Assembly: GCF_030034735.1 (NCBI RefSeq)
Contig: NZ_CP125370.1
Location: forward strand, 5,441,001 to 5,505,000
Source: Paenibacillus sp. RC334
GTDB lineage: Bacteria > Bacillota > Bacilli > Paenibacillales > Paenibacillaceae
Direction of reading: 5' to 3'
Length of the DNA: 64,000 bases
Below are positions 1,631-56,477 of the stretch, piece after piece (position 1 is the stretch's first letter; each line of letters starts with the position of its first letter). The notes below the pieces were generated by a model. That model worked only from the letters and a program-made list of their open reading frames with translations. It was not told the origin of the DNA and did not search any database. Made by a program: the position numbers and the translations under genes.

Positions 1631-2782
1631 TCAGACCGCAGAAAGTGTTTGCTCCAACCAACGCCTTAGTGCCAAACGATGTATCGTTAAGCCATTGTCC
1701 CGATCAAGTCGTTCATATTGAGTAGCATATTTCTCTTCCAACGCAGGAAAGCCACCATAACGCTTCAAAAAGCCGCGGATTTGACAGACTGCCTTGATTT
1801 TAAGCAGCTCCTGTTTAGCCATATCAAGCGTGTTCAGCCCCTCATCCAATAGCCGCTCGGCCTCGTCCACTCCCCCGGTAAGCAGGAGCATGAATCCCTG
1901 CATCATCCGATAACGCCCCAGCTCCCGCAAATACGGAGCCTCAGATAGCATCCCTTCCAATCGAACGGATAGTACCTTAGCCTCCTCCATACGGTTGGCG
2001 GTCAGATGCATGTACATCTCCATCAGCGCAACAGGCATCACAAATTTGTCCAGCTCATCCCGCTCCATCACTGCAAAAGCCAGCGGAAGTCTCTCCAGTG
2101 CGCGTTCAGATTGTCCATTCTCCACATAAGCCTCCAGGATGTTGAGAATACGCAATTCCCGCTCCTGCTCGGCGGATAGTAATCCACTGGAAAGCGCCCG
2201 CTCACATAGAGCAAGCTTCTGATCCGTTACCCCTGCTGTACCTATATATAGCAGTAACATCCAGTACAGTCGATCTTTAGGAGCAAAGTCCTCCCGTTCC
2301 AAAAACCACAATATATCGGCCTGCACAAACCGGGTATACATCTGATAAAAAGGAGACAGTTCGAACCCCATCTGCTCCTGCTGAGCAGCCAGCGCCACGA
2401 TGGAATTCCCCTGTCCCAGCAATTGGTATTTCCGTAACAGTCCGTGGACAGCGTCTTGTACCTCCTGATCGCGCAGGGACGGATGATTCTGTCGTTGCAC
2501 GCCAGTAAGGGTCAAGCTGTAGCCATACCCCCGGACCGTATGAATACGAAGAGCATTCCATGGCTTGAGCTTTTTACGCAATCTGTAGATATGATCATCC
2601 ACCGTGCGCTCCACCGGATATTCCAGCGGCCACACACGATCCAGCAGTTGTTCCCGGGTGAACACCTGATTCCGGTTATCGTATAGAAAGCGCAGTAGCG
2701 CAAACTCTTTAGCCAACAACATAACACGATCTGCACTACAGATTACACTATAACCGTCTGTATCAAATTGTAGCCTGATCAT
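1631..2782 (-). CDS. Winged-helix (OmpR/PhoB-type) DNA-binding protein with TPR-like C-terminus
   Basis: A 383-residue protein. Residues 1-90 form an OmpR/PhoB-type winged helix: KEFALLRFLYDN and FTREQLLDRVW, then RTVDDHIYRLRKKL as the recognition region and IHTVRGYGYSL as the wing hairpin. There is no receiver domain. The remaining 290 residues are helical and resemble the TPR-like region of SARP/BTAD activators. The ATG at 2782 is chosen because GGAGG lies 8 nt upstream; longer versions would start inside the preceding transporter gene. It overlaps the end of that gene by 20 nt, so the two are cotranscribed. It is probably a transcription factor for the neighbouring transporters; the effector is unknown. 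Confidence 0.75.
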   Translation of the reverse strand: MIRLQFDTDGYSVICSADRVMLLAKEFALLRFLYDNRNQVFTREQLLDRVWPLEYPVERTVDDHIYRLRKKLKPWNALRIHTVRGYGYSLTLTGVQRQNHPSLRDQEVQDAVHGLLRKYQLLGQGNSIVALAAQQEQMGFELSPFYQMYTRFVQADILWFLEREDFAPKDRLYWMLLLYIGTAGVTDQKLALCERALSSGLLSAEQERELRILNILEAYVENGQSERALERLPLAFAVMERDELDKFVMPVALMEMYMHLTANRMEEAKVLSVRLEGMLSEAPYLRELGRYRMMQGFMLLLTGGVDEAERLLDEGLNTLDMAKQELLKIKAVCQIRGFLKRYGGFPALEEKYATQYERLDRDNGLTIHRLALRRWLEQTLSAV

Positions 2783-4001
2783 CCACCTCGCCTCCGACAT
2801 ATCGTTTCTTGGCTGCACCCAGCCCTGTAAACATGAGCAAAACGCTCAGACACAAGAGTAGAAGCAGCGGAATTGTCCAGCCTTGTGTTGCATCATGTAA
2901 ATAACCGAACAGCGTCGGCCCTGTCGCTGCTAGCAAATAACCAAAGGATTGCGCCATACCAGACAGCTCTGCTGCCTGCTGCGGTGTCCGCGTCCGCAAA
3001 TTAAAGAACATCATCACCAACGGGAAAGCAAAACCACCCGCTATACCGATACAAATGACCCAAATCACACTCCACTGTGTAGCCCCAAGCAGAAATCCAC
3101 CCAGACCGATAAAATACAGCGCAGCCATAATCAGAACCAATACCCGCTGATCCTTTACCCGAGCTGCCCAAATAGGCACAATAAAAGTAAACGGCATTTG
3201 CGAAAACTGCAGCATGGACAGCATCCATCCCGCAGTCTCTGAATCCATTCCCTGTCCAACCATCATCTCGGGAAACCATGCGGCAGGGACGTAGAATAGG
3301 GCAGATTGCAGCCCCATAAACAGCGTCACCTTCCAAGCCAAAGACGATGTATACACATTCACGGTTCGGGCAGACACTGCCGCTTTATTGGCCGTTTTGC
3401 GCGCCTTAAGAAGCTGGGGCACCCAGAGTAAAATACCTACGACACCCACAATCCCCCATATTCCCAAAGCACCGCGCCAGCCCAAACCTCCGTTCAGAGC
3501 CAGCGGTATACTCAGACCGGATGCTGTTGCAGCGACTACATTCATGGATACTGAATATACGCCAGTCATCAGTCCGCTGTTGCGAGGAAACTCCTCTTTG
3601 ATCAAACTGGGCAGCAAAACATTACACACGGCAATAGCCAGTCCCAGCATGGCTGTCCCAGCAAATAATGCGGTCACCCCCAGCGTTGAGCGCACCACAA
3701 TACCTGCGGTCAACAACAGCAAGGCTGCAAAAATAATAAGAGGCGACCCGAAGCGGCGCGACAGTTTGGCTACAAAAGGCGACAACAGGGCAAAAGCCAG
3801 CAGCGGCAATGTCGTTAATAGGCCACTCAGTGTATTCGAAATATGCAAAGAATCCTTAATCAAACCGATAAGAGGTCCTACCGAGGTAATCGAGGCGCGC
3901 AGATTGGCACCTACCAAAATGATCCCTGCGGCAAGCACCCAAGGACCGGCATGCCACAAGGATTTGTATACCAAAGCTCGTTGGTGTTGCTGTGAACTCA
4001 T
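2763..4001 (-). CDS. CynX/NimT-family MFS transporter
   Basis: A 412-residue MFS protein with 12 predicted membrane segments. The first helix, WVLAAGIILVGANLRASIT, carries the LRxxxT signature of the CynX/NimT (cyanate or nitroimidazole transporter-like) family, followed by GPLIGLI and the loop SRRFGSPL. Members of this family have few known substrates. The ATG at 4001 is preferred over an upstream in-frame ATG at 4016 because GGAGA lies 8 nt before it, whereas the upstream ATG almost touches the ribosome binding site. The stop overlaps the next gene, a winged-helix/TPR regulator, by 20 nt. Confidence 0.8.
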   Translation of the reverse strand: MSSQQHQRALVYKSLWHAGPWVLAAGIILVGANLRASITSVGPLIGLIKDSLHISNTLSGLLTTLPLLAFALLSPFVAKLSRRFGSPLIIFAALLLLTAGIVVRSTLGVTALFAGTAMLGLAIAVCNVLLPSLIKEEFPRNSGLMTGVYSVSMNVVAATASGLSIPLALNGGLGWRGALGIWGIVGVVGILLWVPQLLKARKTANKAAVSARTVNVYTSSLAWKVTLFMGLQSALFYVPAAWFPEMMVGQGMDSETAGWMLSMLQFSQMPFTFIVPIWAARVKDQRVLVLIMAALYFIGLGGFLLGATQWSVIWVICIGIAGGFAFPLVMMFFNLRTRTPQQAAELSGMAQSFGYLLAATGPTLFGYLHDATQGWTIPLLLLLCLSVLLMFTGLGAAKKRYVGGEVDDQATI

Positions 4002-45387: not shown

Positions 45388-45639
45388 TTATGTGGGATTG
45401 GGAAGAGGAATATTTTTGCATACAAAGGATGTGGCTTCTAAGGTTTCTGACTGAACATAGTGGTGATGTAACTTCTTAGTCTGATACATACGATTGTACT
45501 GATTAATTAGTTCGTCCAAAATCATAGCCTGCTCAAGTACGCAAGCATGTCCAAAACCATACTGTTCATAAAGATCATGCAATCGTTGACGTGCGCTTTC
45601 CAACTGTTGATTTATCGTTAAAGTTTCATCTATGTTCAT
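45388..45639 (-). CDS. Spo0E-like aspartyl-phosphate phosphatase
   Basis: An 83-residue protein. The first 60 residues form two helices, LESARQRLHDLYEQYG and CVLEQAMILDELINQYNRMY, which match the Spo0E-like family (…LDxLIxxY). Such proteins dephosphorylate Spo0A-P or related regulators and delay sporulation. The family usually has SQxLD; here it is AMILD, so the phosphatase motif deviates. AGGAGG lies 8 nt before the ATG. The C-terminal 20 residues are unusual. Confidence 0.7.
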   Translation of the reverse strand: MNIDETLTINQQLESARQRLHDLYEQYGFGHACVLEQAMILDELINQYNRMYQTKKLHHHYVQSETLEATSFVCKNIPLPNPT

Positions 45640-45721
45640 GCCTTCAACCTCCTAATGAATTTCATTTTAGAGGATAATGAACAAATACAGCATGATCATT
45701 TTTTAGCCAAAAAGCTACAAA

Positions 45722-45748
45722 AAAAAGACCAGCCAAAGGCTGGCCTAT
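45722..45748 (-). terminator. Terminator of the receptor/pro-peptide locus A
   Basis: GACCAGCC and GGCTGGCC-type arms pair around a CAAAG-like loop, and on the minus strand a long T-run follows. It lies 20 nt past the pro-peptide stop. Confidence 0.82.
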
Positions 45749-45768
45749 GGTAATAAATCGATACTTGC

Positions 45769-45894
45769 TTAAAATGTCCCAATGTGTCCTTGAACTTGGA
45801 TTGTGCTTGAGCTTGGGATTCCGATTGGAACTGGTAGTGCGAATACCAGTAAAAAGCTAATCGCTACAAATAGCAAAGCCGTCTTTTCGATCAT
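45769..45894 (-). CDS. Signalling pro-peptide A (AloP/Phr-like)
   Basis: A 41-residue peptide: MIEKT, a hydrophobic export segment (ALLFVAISFLLVFALPV), then a polar tail ending VQGHIGTF. Its ATG lies inside the 3' end of receptor A, which it overlaps by 38 nt in another frame. The same overlap point is seen at two other loci in this window. This is the layout of RRNPP signalling peptides, exported, cut, and re-imported to bind the TPR receptor. The mature peptide is unknown, presumably from the last 5-10 residues. The receptor is truncated, so the pair may be inactive. Confidence 0.7.
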   Translation of the reverse strand: MIEKTALLFVAISFLLVFALPVPIGIPSSSTIQVQGHIGTF

Positions 45895-46660
45895 TTCTTT
45901 CCCACATGTTGTACCGAACTAGTATTCCAGGTTCAGCATTTGCTCTGAAACGCTCAAACAAACCAACACAATTAGCAATAAGAAGTGCATGTTTAAGAGT
46001 AATGGCTTTTTCAAAAGCATCTATTAAACATTTGAAACCATATGAGTATCTGCCTCTATTCAGGTTGTACTTGGCTAACTTATACCAGAATCGTACATTT
46101 TCTTCGAGTATAACTTGCCGCTCTGCTAATGTACTCGTATAAGCTTGGTTTCGATAAGCTGCAATTTGGGGTTCAAAGTGCTGAAGAATATGATCAATGT
46201 CGATGTCGTATCGATTAGCTACTTCTATGACGTTTAAAAGTTCAGCAAAAATATGTTTTTCGCCTAATATGTGCTCAACGTAATCCGGTAGAACGCTAAT
46301 ATCTCCAGACATAAGCCTGTTTACGTAAGTATTAATTTTAGCCCATTGCTGAAATTGGTTTTTCCAATAAAGTGATTCATCGTCATTCTCTTTTACCCAA
46401 CTTAGATCAGCATAACCTTGAATATGTTCTATTGCCTGTTTATGGTTTCCTTTCGCATCACAAGCATGTGCGCACATCAGTTCAGCGTAGGCTATGTATG
46501 CAAACAGTGGTCCAGAACGCAGTTTAGTTTTCGGCCTAGTTTCTTTTTTAGAGTTATGAGCCAAATTGTACTGAATCTGTCCTAATTTATACATTTGGCA
46601 TGTTTGCAACAACGGAACAGCTGACAAAGTATCACAATATCTTACAGGGAGTGCATTCAC
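45857..46660 (-). pseudogene. 5'-truncated TPR receptor A (AloR/Rap-like)
   Basis: The frame of 267 codons matches receptor C (54534-55409) from about residue 23 on: PLFAYIAYAELMCAHACDAKG against PLVFYYAYSYLAKSIYFQNKG, and DISVLPDYVEHI against RELLPEYVQFL. The first 22 codons instead are antisense to a plus-strand remnant of another such locus. About 45 N-terminal residues are missing compared with receptor C, and no ribosome binding site precedes the GTG at 46660 or the ATG at 46594. TPR receptors of this group bind small peptides. Loss of the start suggests a pseudogene, though the peptide gene is intact. Confidence 0.72.
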
Positions 46661-46707
46661 ATGAGAAAAACATTAGTAGTTACATTTATGCGGATGACAT
46701 TTTTTAG
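46598..46707 (+). pseudogene. 3' remnant of a third TPR receptor (B)
   Basis: A plus-strand frame reads FATTEQLTKYHNILQGVHSHEK, then 15 more residues to TAG at 46705. It aligns without gaps with the C-terminus of receptor C (LATSSQQEQYQTILLRGLHNEK): 8 of 22 identical, with others similar. Upstream the frame becomes antisense to receptor A. It is thus the last ~35 codons of a receptor gene whose front was deleted. Confidence 0.68.
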
Positions 46708-46780
46708 TATTTTGAATCCGGTTTCTTTTCCTTCTTCAAATTCAACCATTGTTCCTTTCAATCACGGTGTTAACAGGTAA
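46661..46780 (+). CDS. Signalling pro-peptide B (AloP/Phr-like)
   Basis: A 39-residue peptide: MRKTLVVTFMRMTFFSIL as export segment, then a polar tail ending VPFNHGVNR. GGGAG lies 9 nt before the ATG. The ATG sits over the His-Glu codons of receptor remnant B, exactly the position where pro-peptide C overlaps receptor C (Asn-Glu). This conserved overlap argues that it is real. Its receptor is lost, so it is probably an orphan, but it could still signal to other receptors. Confidence 0.62.
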   Translation: MRKTLVVTFMRMTFFSILNPVSFPSSNSTIVPFNHGVNR

Positions 46781-53477: not shown

Positions 53478-54314
53478 TTGAATACAGTAGATGCATTAAT
53501 TGCATCCATTTCCTACATACAACAGATTATGCGTGAGAAGGTAACCCTTTGCCTCTTTGACCGTACTCATGTACTGGCTTATAGCGAGTCGGAGGGGATG
53601 GAGCTCGGCTTTGAAGTCGGCTCAGAGCTGCTCAAGGGCTACCAAAATTTTTCCATGCTTAAAAATGGGCGTGAGCCCAGCCTGACCCACGTTCCTGCTG
53701 AACTGCTGGGGTATCCTCTTGATATGGTCAGTATTCCTGTGTTTGACGAAAATGGCGAGGTCGTTGCAGCATTTGCTGCTTCCTATAATTTGACTAACAA
53801 GAATCAGTTGGATCAAATCGTCACTGAGAACCTTTCCATCACCGAGCATCTCATTGACATGGTGCAGCATGTAGCAGCGCATTCCGAGGAGCTACAGGCT
53901 ACCAGTGAGCAGATTTTGAAGAATACCCAAATTGCCGTACAAAACTCGGGTAAAATCAATCAGGTCGCTGTATTCATCAAAGAAATCTCCGACCAAACCA
54001 ACCTGCTTGGATTAAATGCTGCCATTGAAGCGGCACGTGTCGGAGAAGCAGGAGCAGGCTTTGGTATCGTCGCTCAAGAAGTGCGTAAGCTCTCGGTAGA
54101 ATCCAAAAAAGCGACAGTTGACATTGAAGCGGCTCTCAAGGATGTACAAAACTCCGTTCGTCAGATGGAAGAGGAAATTGAGCAAATTGTTGCTTCTTCG
54201 CAGGAGCAAGCGACGCTCGTAAACTCTTTTACCGAAATAATGGAGCGTATGCAACAAGCGAGTGAAACGATGCAGCATCTGGCGAAGAACTTGACTTCCT
54301 ATATCGTAAAATAA
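53478..54314 (+). CDS. Soluble methyl-accepting chemotaxis-type protein
   Basis: A 278-residue protein without membrane helices. The N-terminal 120 residues form a PAS-like sensor ([44 protein letters not shown]). A short coiled MCP signalling domain follows, with the core hairpin [36 protein letters not shown] at about 185-220 (given here in part: [16 protein letters not shown]). This type of short cytosolic receptor contacts CheA/CheW or acts in other output pathways. The TTG start at 53478 has AAAGGTAGG before it. The signal sensed is unknown. Confidence 0.87.
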
Positions 54315-54355
54315 CATAGTTTACACATGAGGAGTTTGCAAAATCCTGACATGAA

Positions 54356-54416
54356 AAAGGGAGCCACTTATCGCATCATTTCACATGCGTTAAAGTACGC
54401 TCCCTTTATTTACAAA
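54356..54416 (+). terminator. Terminator of the chemoreceptor-like gene
   Basis: AAAGGGAGC pairs with GCTCCCTTT across a loop that has its own CGCA/TGCG stem. A short ATTT tail follows. A near-palindrome AGGAnTTTGCAAAnTCCT (54329-54346) lies just before. Confidence 0.65.
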
Positions 54417-54448
54417 ATCCCTGCCGGGACTTATCAATCCAATCAAGT

Positions 54449-54580
54449 TTAAACAGTAACAGAGAACACCCCATGATTGGCAGGATTCACGGGGTCTAGC
54501 TCACCCAGTACAGTTCCCGCCGGAATCACAATACTAAGAAACACCAAGACCATAGTTACCGAGATTAAAGCCTTTTTCAT
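54449..54580 (-). CDS. Signalling pro-peptide C (AloP/Phr-like)
   Basis: A 43-residue peptide: MKKA, hydrophobic segment (LISVTMVLVFLSIVIPAG), then a polar tail ending ANHGVFSVTV. AAGGGGG lies 7 nt before the ATG. It overlaps the last 47 nt of receptor C in a different frame. Sec-type export followed by cleavage and re-import through an oligopeptide permease is the normal path of such peptides. The tail shares NHGV with pro-peptide B. This locus is the only one of three with an apparently complete receptor. Confidence 0.75.
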   Translation of the reverse strand: MKKALISVTMVLVFLSIVIPAGTVLGELDPVNPANHGVFSVTV

Positions 54581-55409
54581 TATGAAGCCCCCTTAATAAA
54601 ATGGTTTGATATTGCTCTTGCTGTGACGATGTTGCCAAATCTCGATAAGCCTCAAACAGAGCGACCAGTGTCCTGAAATCGGCATCTGCTTCTACACTAA
54701 CAGAGAATTGCAGAGAAGCAAGGACATAATTTAACGCAACCGTGTACTGCTCCTGTTTGAAATAATAAATGGCTAATTGGTTAACCAGCTTTAAATAATA
54801 TACGCGGTTTCCTCTATCTTCATAACCTTCAAATATCTCAATATCATGGGCAAAGTCATTCAGCAGATCGTCAATATTCCAATTATTCAAATTAGCTGCT
54901 TCGGCAATACCGACCAATCCTGGAAGCAGTTCCTCATCATTGGCGTGAAGAAATTGAACATATTCGGGCAGAAGCTCCCGTTTTCCCGAAAGCAATTCAA
55001 TCGTGTACAGGTTGGCCTTGGCGAGAAAACGAAATCTTTCCACTTCTTCATGGCCGCTCTCATCCAGCCCCATAAACCAACCCATTTCGCCGTACTTCAT
55101 AATATATTCTCTGGCTTCTTGATACTTACCCTTATTCTGAAAATAAATAGATTTAGCCAAATAACTGTATGCATAATAAAATACCAATGGATGTTTGGTA
55201 TTCAATATCTCGTGCTTGCCGTCCGCAGCATTTCTCAGTTGGATGTGATACAGGCTTTCAGCCAAAGCATGCAGATAGTCTGCAACCTTGTTCGCTTCAT
55301 CCCAATCGTTATGTGTGTAGCTGATTCTAAACAACTCACAAGCCTTGTCGAGTTCGTGGCTGTCCGACAACAAATAAATAGCTTCCCTTTGATTCAGGAC
55401 CTCTTCCAC
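54534..55409 (-). CDS. TPR receptor C of a peptide quorum-sensing pair (AloR/Rap-like)
   Basis: A 291-residue, all-helical protein. TPR-like repeats include LVFYYAYSYLAKSIYFQNKGKYQEAREYI near residue 75 (key part: YFQNKGKYQEA), FLAKANLYTIELLSGKRELLPEYV, and YLKLVNQLAIYYFKQEQYTVALNYV near 215. No DNA-binding domain is visible, so it may act on proteins, as Rap proteins do. The GTG at 55409 has GGAGG 9 nt before it. The 3' end overlaps a hydrophobic pro-peptide gene. This matches the AloR-AloP systems described in P. polymyxa, of the RRNPP group. The targets of this copy are unknown. Confidence 0.75.
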   Translation of the reverse strand: MEEVLNQREAIYLLSDSHELDKACELFRISYTHNDWDEANKVADYLHALAESLYHIQLRNAADGKHEILNTKHPLVFYYAYSYLAKSIYFQNKGKYQEAREYIMKYGEMGWFMGLDESGHEEVERFRFLAKANLYTIELLSGKRELLPEYVQFLHANDEELLPGLVGIAEAANLNNWNIDDLLNDFAHDIEIFEGYEDRGNRVYYLKLVNQLAIYYFKQEQYTVALNYVLASLQFSVSVEADADFRTLVALFEAYRDLATSSQQEQYQTILLRGLHNEKGFNLGNYGLGVS

Positions 55410-55841
55410 TAAAACCCGCCTCCCTATCCTGAAAATGACGTTTACCCATGTATTCTCATCAGGAGCATCCGCGTTGTCATTCCTCTAGCATACCAGTATA
55501 TTACAAATATAGACAAAAGCTAACTTGAAGTCAATTCAATCATAGATATGCAGTTTCTTTTGCAACCTAACATAGTCATGTATGGTTTATAGCCGATGAA
55601 TAAATGAATCCTGCTATAGAAATAATCCATAACAAAGATGTGAATCAGGCCCTCCAAAGGAGGTCAAAAAGAAGTCATAGTATCGTCAGGGTAACTACGT
55701 TACGAAATAGTGCGTACTTTTCAATCGGATACCGGGGGCTTACAATCAAACCTGTGCATGAAACCAAAGTATTCACAGCACTCAACAGAGCATGTACCTG
55801 TTCATCCAATACAAATTCACTAAAGGAGTGAAGTTAATAAC
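55410..55841. other. 432-base gap before hxlA
   Basis: No gene is supported. A 75-codon plus-strand frame at 55604 has no ribosome binding site and poor composition. The region must hold promoters for hxlAB (plus) and receptor C (minus); no clear repeat or operator was seen. Confidence 0.35.
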
Positions 55842-56477
55842 ATGGAACTTCAATTGGCTTTAGACTTAGTAGATATCCCGCAAGGCATTGCATTGGTAAA
55901 AGAAGTAGAATCGTATATTGATATCGTAGAAATCGGTACGCCGATTGTCATTAATGAAGGACTTCATGCGGTAAAAGCAATGAAAGAAGCATTCCCGAAT
56001 CTGAAAGTGCTGGCTGACCTGAAAGTTATGGATGCAGGCGGTTACGAAGTGATGAAAGCTTCCGAAGCTGGCGCAGATATCGTTACGATTCTGGCTGTAG
56101 CTGAAGATGCAACGATCAAAGGTGCGGTAGAAGAAGCGAAAAAACAAGGCGGCAAAAAAATCCTGGTGGACATGATCGGTGTTAAAAACCTGGAGCAACG
56201 CGCGAAAGAAATCGACGCTCTCGGCGTAGACTACATCTGCGTGCATACAGGCTACGATCTGCAAGCTGAAGGACAAAGCCCGTTCGAAGCACTGCAAACG
56301 GTTAAAAAAGTCGTGAAAAACTCCAAAACAGCGGTTGCTGGCGGCATTAAGCTGAGCACACTGGCTGAGGTAGTTAAGGCTCAACCGGATCTGGTTATTG
56401 TGGGCGGCGGGATCACTGGCGAGGACGACAAAAAAGCCGTTGCTTCCCAAATGCAGCAGCTCATTAAACAAGGTTAA
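55842..56477 (+). CDS. hxlA: 3-hexulose-6-phosphate synthase
   Basis: A 211-residue TIM-barrel enzyme of the OMPDC superfamily. LALDLVDIPQGIAL at the start, VEIGTPIVINEG near residue 31, VLADLKVMDAGGYEV near 58 (DxKxxD) and VAGGIKLSTLAEVV near 165 are the conserved blocks. It joins formaldehyde to ribulose-5-phosphate, giving hexulose-6-phosphate. It is 5 nt before hxlB. The pair forms the ribulose monophosphate route, used by Bacillales to detoxify formaldehyde. AAAGGAG lies 13 nt before the ATG. Confidence 0.95.
   Translation: MELQLALDLVDIPQGIALVKEVESYIDIVEIGTPIVINEGLHAVKAMKEAFPNLKVLADLKVMDAGGYEVMKASEAGADIVTILAVAEDATIKGAVEEAKKQGGKKILVDMIGVKNLEQRAKEIDALGVDYICVHTGYDLQAEGQSPFEALQTVKKVVKNSKTAVAGGIKLSTLAEVVKAQPDLVIVGGGITGEDDKKAVASQMQQLIKQG

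Follow-up and report, generated by a model that had tools for sequence, protein, structure and literature searches.

A short tetratricopeptide receptor and its overlapping pro-peptide gene in Paenibacillus sp. RC334: a candidate pheromone pair from an Alo branch without the DNA-binding domain

A stretch of 64,000 nucleotides from Paenibacillus sp. RC334 (contig NZ_CP125370.1, positions 5,441,001 to 5,505,000; hereafter the window) contains a receptor gene of 291 codons and a pro-peptide gene of 43 codons. The pair is best explained, with a probability of about 0.65, as a private pheromone gating a tetratricopeptide repeat (TPR) receptor that acts by protein contact, within the Alo branch of the RRNPP family. 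The two genes, their overlap, their conservation, the kinship of the receptor to AloR, the absence of a helix-turn-helix (HTH) domain and the peptide core stand on sequence and comparison with relatives. Alo systems have already been published; as far as the literature passages at hand show, the HTH-less branch, its grouping across several genera, the shared HG core and the predicted peptide are new.

Receptor kinship and domain make-up

An initial annotation of the window described a TPR-like receptor of 291 residues without a DNA-binding domain. This description holds: the open reading frame (ORF) was recovered, a Pfam scan returned TPR matches only, all of them sub-threshold, and no DNA-binding domain was found by Pfam. 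NCBIfam gave no match for either the receptor or the pro-peptide. In the passages considered here, Voichek et al. 2020 (PMC7425212) state that all Alo receptors contain an N-terminal HTH, and the literature passages on Alo systems (main text, supplementary tables not included) make no mention of an AloR without one. The search in PMC7425212, as described there, retained homologues of at least 250 amino acids; receptors of 291 amino acids, including this pair, may therefore sit in its tables.

The similarity to RRNPP/AloR families that the initial annotation anticipated is borne out by comparison with AloRs of full length (L numbers denote loci, G numbers genomes). The receptor aligns with L098 at 32.8% (E 3.5e-45) and with L074 at E 6.7e-58, and five HTH-type AloR rows match it at E 1e-42 to 1e-58. 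Receptor residue 12 lines up with position 192 in the L098 frame, and residue 14 (12 in one case) with residues 192-197 of the five HTH-type rows. Because the match to L098 begins only at residue 192, the short receptor is, judged by alignment, an AloR reduced to its C-terminal TPR portion, with about 180 N-terminal residues absent. The pro-peptide of L098 ends GSQITVSSHGRGG, resembling the AloP13 pro-peptide as given in the available part of PMC7425212, and L098 is for this reason probably an AloR13 orthologue.

Among the long receptors, L010 carries an N-terminal HTH above the Pfam HTH_3 cut-off. L074, L005 and L098 have no HTH_3 match and were recognized by an N-terminal HTH profile trained on 21 long rows that include these three. 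With this profile, no AloR-type HTH was found at the 14 orthologous loci within approximately 1.5 kb on either side. The window's genome holds 25 receptor matches, 15 of which have open frames of 465-522 amino acids, the full AloR length.

An AlphaFold2 model of the receptor, built from 42 sequences, is entirely helical, with a mean predicted local distance difference test score (pLDDT) of 86.6 and a predicted template modelling score (pTM) of 0.81. Confidence is low for residues 1-8 and 278-291, the latter lying inside the gene overlap. In VIA-align, a plant TPR protein ranked first (15.6) and NprR-NprX second (14.7); lower scores were obtained for apo NprR (13.9), pLS20 Rap (13.3), LGN (13.2), phi3T Rap (13.1), RapJ-CSF (12.8), RapF (12.6) and AimR (11.2). 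Foldseek placed LGN first and NprR 37th, with no hit at E 0.001; the top rank thus goes to a TPR protein in either comparison. The alignments start at residue 127 in both NprR and AimR, and that to NprR spans residues 127-365 only. A viral structure library yielded a single match, the unnamed S5MC02 (E 3.6e-4). The model supports a TPR superhelix, although by itself it does not prove RRNPP membership.

Conservation of the receptor

A search of 75 congeneric genomes recovered the full-length receptor in 14, across all 291 residues and at 83-100% identity. The window's genome is close to P. terrae, and the copy in P. terrae NRRL B-30644 (L026) is at 99%. All 14 orthologues have 291 codons, and the start is GTG in 13 and ATG in one. 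The neighbours, putatively named from their sequences as hxlA-hxlB (divergent, upstream) and a chemotaxis-type gene (convergent, downstream) followed by pepT, recur around the orthologues: hxlA upstream and pepT downstream in 14/14, the chemotaxis-type gene in 11/14. Among pairs of 11 representatives, with the overlap excluded, the mean ratio of nonsynonymous to synonymous change (dN/dS) is 0.113. Given the constant length, the single conserved site and the purifying selection in 14/75 genomes, the receptor does not look like a decaying gene. An HTH that had been misannotated, or lost by frameshift, was considered and rejected, since the start signals occupy the same place in 14/14 and the profile found no AloR-type HTH within approximately 1.5 kb.

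Pro-peptide and predicted mature peptide

The pro-peptide ATG sits within the 3' end of the receptor gene, as originally annotated, and the two ORFs share 47 bases. The product has a hydrophobic N-terminal segment (Kyte-Doolittle window score 2.8). Its frame is intact in 13 of the 14 orthologues; in P. ottowii it ends after 11 codons. The reading of the locus as a complete pair thus stands for the window's genome but not for P. ottowii. There, the receptor is retained although its own small frame is broken, with dN/dS of 0.11-0.20: 0.15 and 0.20 against its two nearest relatives, which differ from each other at 0.18. This retention suggests that the peptide-free form of the receptor does something useful.

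NHGVF is invariant in all 13 intact pro-peptides; the residue before it is A in 6 and S in 7, and the residue after it is S in 12. The P. maysiensis pro-peptide stops directly after NHGVF. At the codon level (8/13 intact orthologues), NHGVFS shows 0.000 nonsynonymous against 0.438 synonymous differences per site, and the residues behind it show 0.490 nonsynonymous and 0 synonymous. By this comparison, the pattern is that expected of a short peptide under selection whose tail is free to vary, and a chance ORF is rejected on the same ground. The initial annotation had left the mature peptide undefined within a tail ending ANHGVFSVTV. The entire tail is unlikely to be the signal, as the residues past NHGVFS vary among species and are absent in P. 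maysiensis; the last three residues of the tail are the unconserved part. The candidates thereby narrow to a predicted NHGVFS or [A/S]NHGVF. NHGVFS is proposed because it keeps the register of SHGRGG, the mature form of AloP13 in the available text of PMC7425212, with three residues after HG. Judging from P. maysiensis, NHGVF or SNHGVF may be sufficient as well. Inspection by eye of the window's genome (G000) and of G018 and G027, both of which have the pair, showed no further small frame that looks exported and contains NHGVF, and P. ottowii showed none; the NHGVF sequence seems private to the pair.

An HG core shared by related pro-peptides

In a survey that included receptor fragments and omitted seven duplicates, candidate pro-peptides adjoin 44 of 68 short receptors. 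HG occurred within the last 16 residues of 36/38 distinct short-receptor pro-peptides, compared with a shuffled mean of 4.8 and a maximum of 12. Of the two that lack it, one lies next to a truncated HTH-type copy and the other next to a fragment. Long receptors have HG in 10/16 distinct candidates (shuffled mean 2.7, maximum 8); for this reason, the motif is best assigned, on these counts, to AloPs at large and not specially to short receptors. Exactly three residues follow HG in 21/36, the register of SHGRGG, and cores of other groups include FNHGVNG, SNHGWN, FYHGANH and NNHGMNH. Three pro-peptides carry a tandem double HG core: L078 (NNHGANSFQPNNHGANY), L084 and L089. Their inner copies, if used, would therefore also need a C-terminal cut.

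Two further observations concern the window's genome. The pro-peptide of L008, an HTH-type AloR, has an inner SHGMGG and then ten more residues, that is, a tail behind the HG core. The pro-peptides of HTH-less L002 and HTH-type L005 end almost identically (ISVFYHGANH and ISVFYHGAGG), a hint of possible cross-talk between receptor types.

An HTH-less branch across genera

A first maximum-likelihood tree of the shared region (81/99 loci, unrooted) left out L007, L015, L020, L022-L032, L048, L072 and L082 (fragments, duplicates and one wrong frame) as well as L018 (no hit). In it, a branch with 100/100 support divides 59 short receptors from 21 HTH-type rows and the 410-amino-acid L003. Rows from other genera were added to a second tree, from which L103 and L105 (duplicates) and 25 near-copies were additionally removed; it is likewise unrooted, with midpoint placement for drawing only. 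Of the 37 added loci, 16 have an in-frame AloR-type HTH and 21 have none, a division that tracks frame length. In the second tree, 54 short receptors form one group (99/94). Together with two rows of 346 and 372 amino acids in which no in-frame HTH is seen, they make up 56 (100/99), separated from 34 HTH rows and L003. The short rows come from genera g1, g13 and g18, and the two longer ones from g6. A family-wide search matched at least 109 of 245 genomes at E 1e-45 or better.

The HTH-less receptors thus form a supported group in both trees, one branch and not scattered losses. The rows were drawn, among the matches listed, by similarity to the receptor or its profile, a choice that could overlook separate losses of the HTH in other receptors. 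L003, in which no HTH was found, stands with the HTH rows in the second tree and beside the short rows in the first; it and L022, a recent deletion, may be independent losses. HTH plus TPR is the established layout of NprR, PlcR and other AloRs, which argues that the HTH was lost, not gained, in the short branch.

Group D (L004, L079-L081, L083, L085-L088, L090, L091 and L096) is HTH-less and has no candidate pro-peptide; at least one small XRE-type gene lies divergently upstream in 12/12, and the mean dN/dS of its receptors is 0.200 (9/12 rows). A divergent XRE partner was rejected as a general rule, being found beside some HTH-less groups and some HTH-type AloRs and not beside this pair.

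Mobile elements carry related copies as well. In a tblastn search of 72,556 plasmid records, 30 matched; these include P. polymyxa pPPM1a, with a gene of 293 codons, and P. peoriae pPlas3, with one of 288 codons. Brevibacillus phage SecTim467 (L123) carries, at 2121-3944, a full-length AloR with a small frame that overlaps it, together with a Spo0E-like gene.

Proposed mechanism and alternatives

Following the known RRNPP cycle, the pro-peptide would be exported via its N-terminal hydrophobic segment and trimmed to NHGVFS or [A/S]NHGVF, with the conservation pattern as the evidence that speaks for processing. The trimmed peptide would re-enter the cell, sit in the TPR groove of the receptor and alter its contact with a partner protein. 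Since the receptor lacks an HTH, peptide-controlled protein contact would be the simplest output. AloR paralogues, small XRE or AbrB-like regulators and a response regulator are candidate partners, none of them favoured.

In a narrower form of this reading, possible but on balance unlikely, the short receptor would associate with an AloR paralogue of full length, or with some other HTH protein, and modulate it, the output still being transcription by way of a borrowed DNA-binding domain. Possible partners abound, given the 15 of 25 own-genome matches with full AloR length. Moreover, divergent small XRE genes adjoin other HTH-less groups (group D in 12/12, L048, L051, L052 and L089), and a MazE/AbrB-like gene lies beside HTH-less L053 and L057. 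However, neither an XRE nor an AbrB-like gene lies beside this pair in any of the 14 orthologues, and XRE genes also adjoin several HTH-type AloRs and hence do not mark the HTH-less ones.

Two other accounts appear improbable to a similar degree. A Rap-like receptor would bind or dephosphorylate a sporulation or competence response regulator and be switched off by the peptide, as the shared TPR fold and absent DNA-binding domain might invite. Its 291 residues compare with 355-376 in the listed Rap chains, and the model aligns with RapJ, phi3T Rap and RapF only from residues 78, 79 and 153, though with two pLS20 Rap rows from 8 and 10. By length and most alignment rows, those of pLS20 Rap excepted, a Rap-like N-terminal three-helix effector bundle is likely absent. 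The family profile, run against PDB chains with Rap included, found none up to E 10. Alternatively, a receptor without output could soak up its own or its paralogues' peptides and so set a threshold. The lost output domain fits such a sink, as does P. ottowii, where the receptor persists without its own peptide (dN/dS 0.11-0.20); the peptide core, however, is private by eye in G000, G018 and G027, and only the pair's own signal would be absorbed.

That the receptor is a relic, an AloR decaying after N-terminal loss, is highly improbable: truncated AloRs do occur in this genome (e.g., 45857-46660), but orthologue length, start signals and promoter are constant, mean dN/dS is 0.113 and the receptors form one supported multi-genus group.

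Locus layout and neighbourhood

The features of the locus are collected in Table 1. The ribosome binding site reported for the pro-peptide gene was found again, and ahead of the receptor start GGAGGCG stands at a constant place in 14/14 orthologues. The promoter-like site is present in 11/12 aligned orthologues, the aligned stretch of the twelfth starting only at the -10 element; the scanned region holds 8 such sites against 4.7 expected. The hairpin behind the pro-peptide gene has a folding z-score of -6.96 on the plus strand and -3.88 on the minus strand, where 0/200 shuffles were equally stable and UUUUU follows. Lying between the pair and the chemotaxis-type gene that converges on it, it likely terminates transcription from both sides. 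Two results count against this: a simple terminator scan of the region returned no site, and a minus-strand stretch that cuts the stem scored z -1.33. A search of 54300-56000 for known RNA elements found none at the gathering threshold. A 12-codon frame ending IHG, spotted by eye in the receptor leader, was dropped, as it is missing from the 60 upstream bases of L028-L031.

Table 1. Features of the receptor and pro-peptide locus, in window positions
Feature	Position	Strand	Basis
Receptor gene, HTH-less AloR type, 291 codons, GTG start	54534-55409	minus	ORF list; Pfam; orthologue lengths; model
Pro-peptide gene, AloP type, 43 codons, ATG start, MKKALISVTMVLVFLSIVIPAGTVLGELDPVNPANHGVFSVTV	54449-54580	minus	ORF list; orthologues
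NHGVFS codons, predicted mature peptide	54461-54478	minus	residues invariant, codons variable; HG register of other pro-peptides
Ribosome binding site AAGGGGG of pro-peptide gene	54588-54594	minus	7 bases before ATG; orthologue upstream bases
Ribosome binding site AGGGAGG of receptor gene	55419-55425	minus	9 bases before GTG
Promoter-like TTGACT-17-TATATT of the pair	55506-55534	minus	motif scan and orthologues
Hairpin and T run 3' of pro-peptide gene, candidate two-way terminator	54356-54408	both	folding z-scores

Other Alo remnants lie elsewhere in the window. At 46661-46780 (plus strand), an orphan AloP-type pro-peptide ends PFNHGVNR; its relatives (L053 and L054) have an HTH-less receptor alongside. 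At about 46600, approximately 2.1 kb is missing, including most of an HTH-less receptor and a MazE/AbrB-like gene. The minus-strand stretch 45388-46660 holds an HTH-type AloR (45857-46660) without its N-terminal part, apparently through the same deletion. It is followed by a pro-peptide gene (45769-45894, product ending GHIGTF) and a Spo0E-like gene (45388-45639, PF09388 above cut-off).

Significance

According to the passages of PMC7425212, Paenibacillus has peptide signals in record number, and the presence of an HTH in every Alo receptor is taken there to mean that the receptors act as transcriptional regulators. If a whole branch lacks the HTH and most of its groups have an HG-core peptide of their own, some of the Alo network must operate differently. 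After Rap and NprR, this would be a second instance of kindred peptide receptors of which some carry a DNA-binding domain and others do not. We tentatively extend this, at somewhat less than even odds, to an old Alo branch of TPR-only sensors in several Paenibacillaceae genera, in which many private HG-core peptides would act in parallel within one cell and, through peptide-controlled protein contact, direct paralogues that bind DNA or regulators that stand alone. If true, TPR-only pheromone sensors would add another class of output to RRNPP signalling. With about six residues, the predicted peptide lends itself to a direct test of the pair, as SHGRGG did.

Comparison with known systems

NprR carries an HTH (PMC10075063, Fig. 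5 legend). The NprR-NprX system of the Bacillus cereus group therefore differs from the present pair, whose receptor has none. Rap-Phr of Bacillus is closer in layout, sharing the missing DNA-binding domain, the overlapping receptor and pro-peptide genes and the TPR superhelix. It differs in that the receptor here is shorter and its family profile finds no PDB chain up to E 10, a comparison limited to Rap chains in the PDB. Relative to AloR-AloP of P. polymyxa, best studied as AloR13-AloP13 and described in the available text of PMC7425212, the receptor lacks the N-terminal HTH and is about 180 residues shorter, a variable tail follows the predicted mature peptide, and no spo0E-like gene stands beside the pair. 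The initial annotation had likened the layout to Rap-Phr as well as to AloR-AloP; the domain make-up matches neither of the published descriptions, but an RRNPP/Alo-type pair is upheld by the L098 match. With AloR-AloP, the pair shares receptor kinship over residues 12-283, a small, putatively exported pro-peptide overlapping the receptor 3' end, an HG peptide at or near the C-terminus and the same bacterial group.
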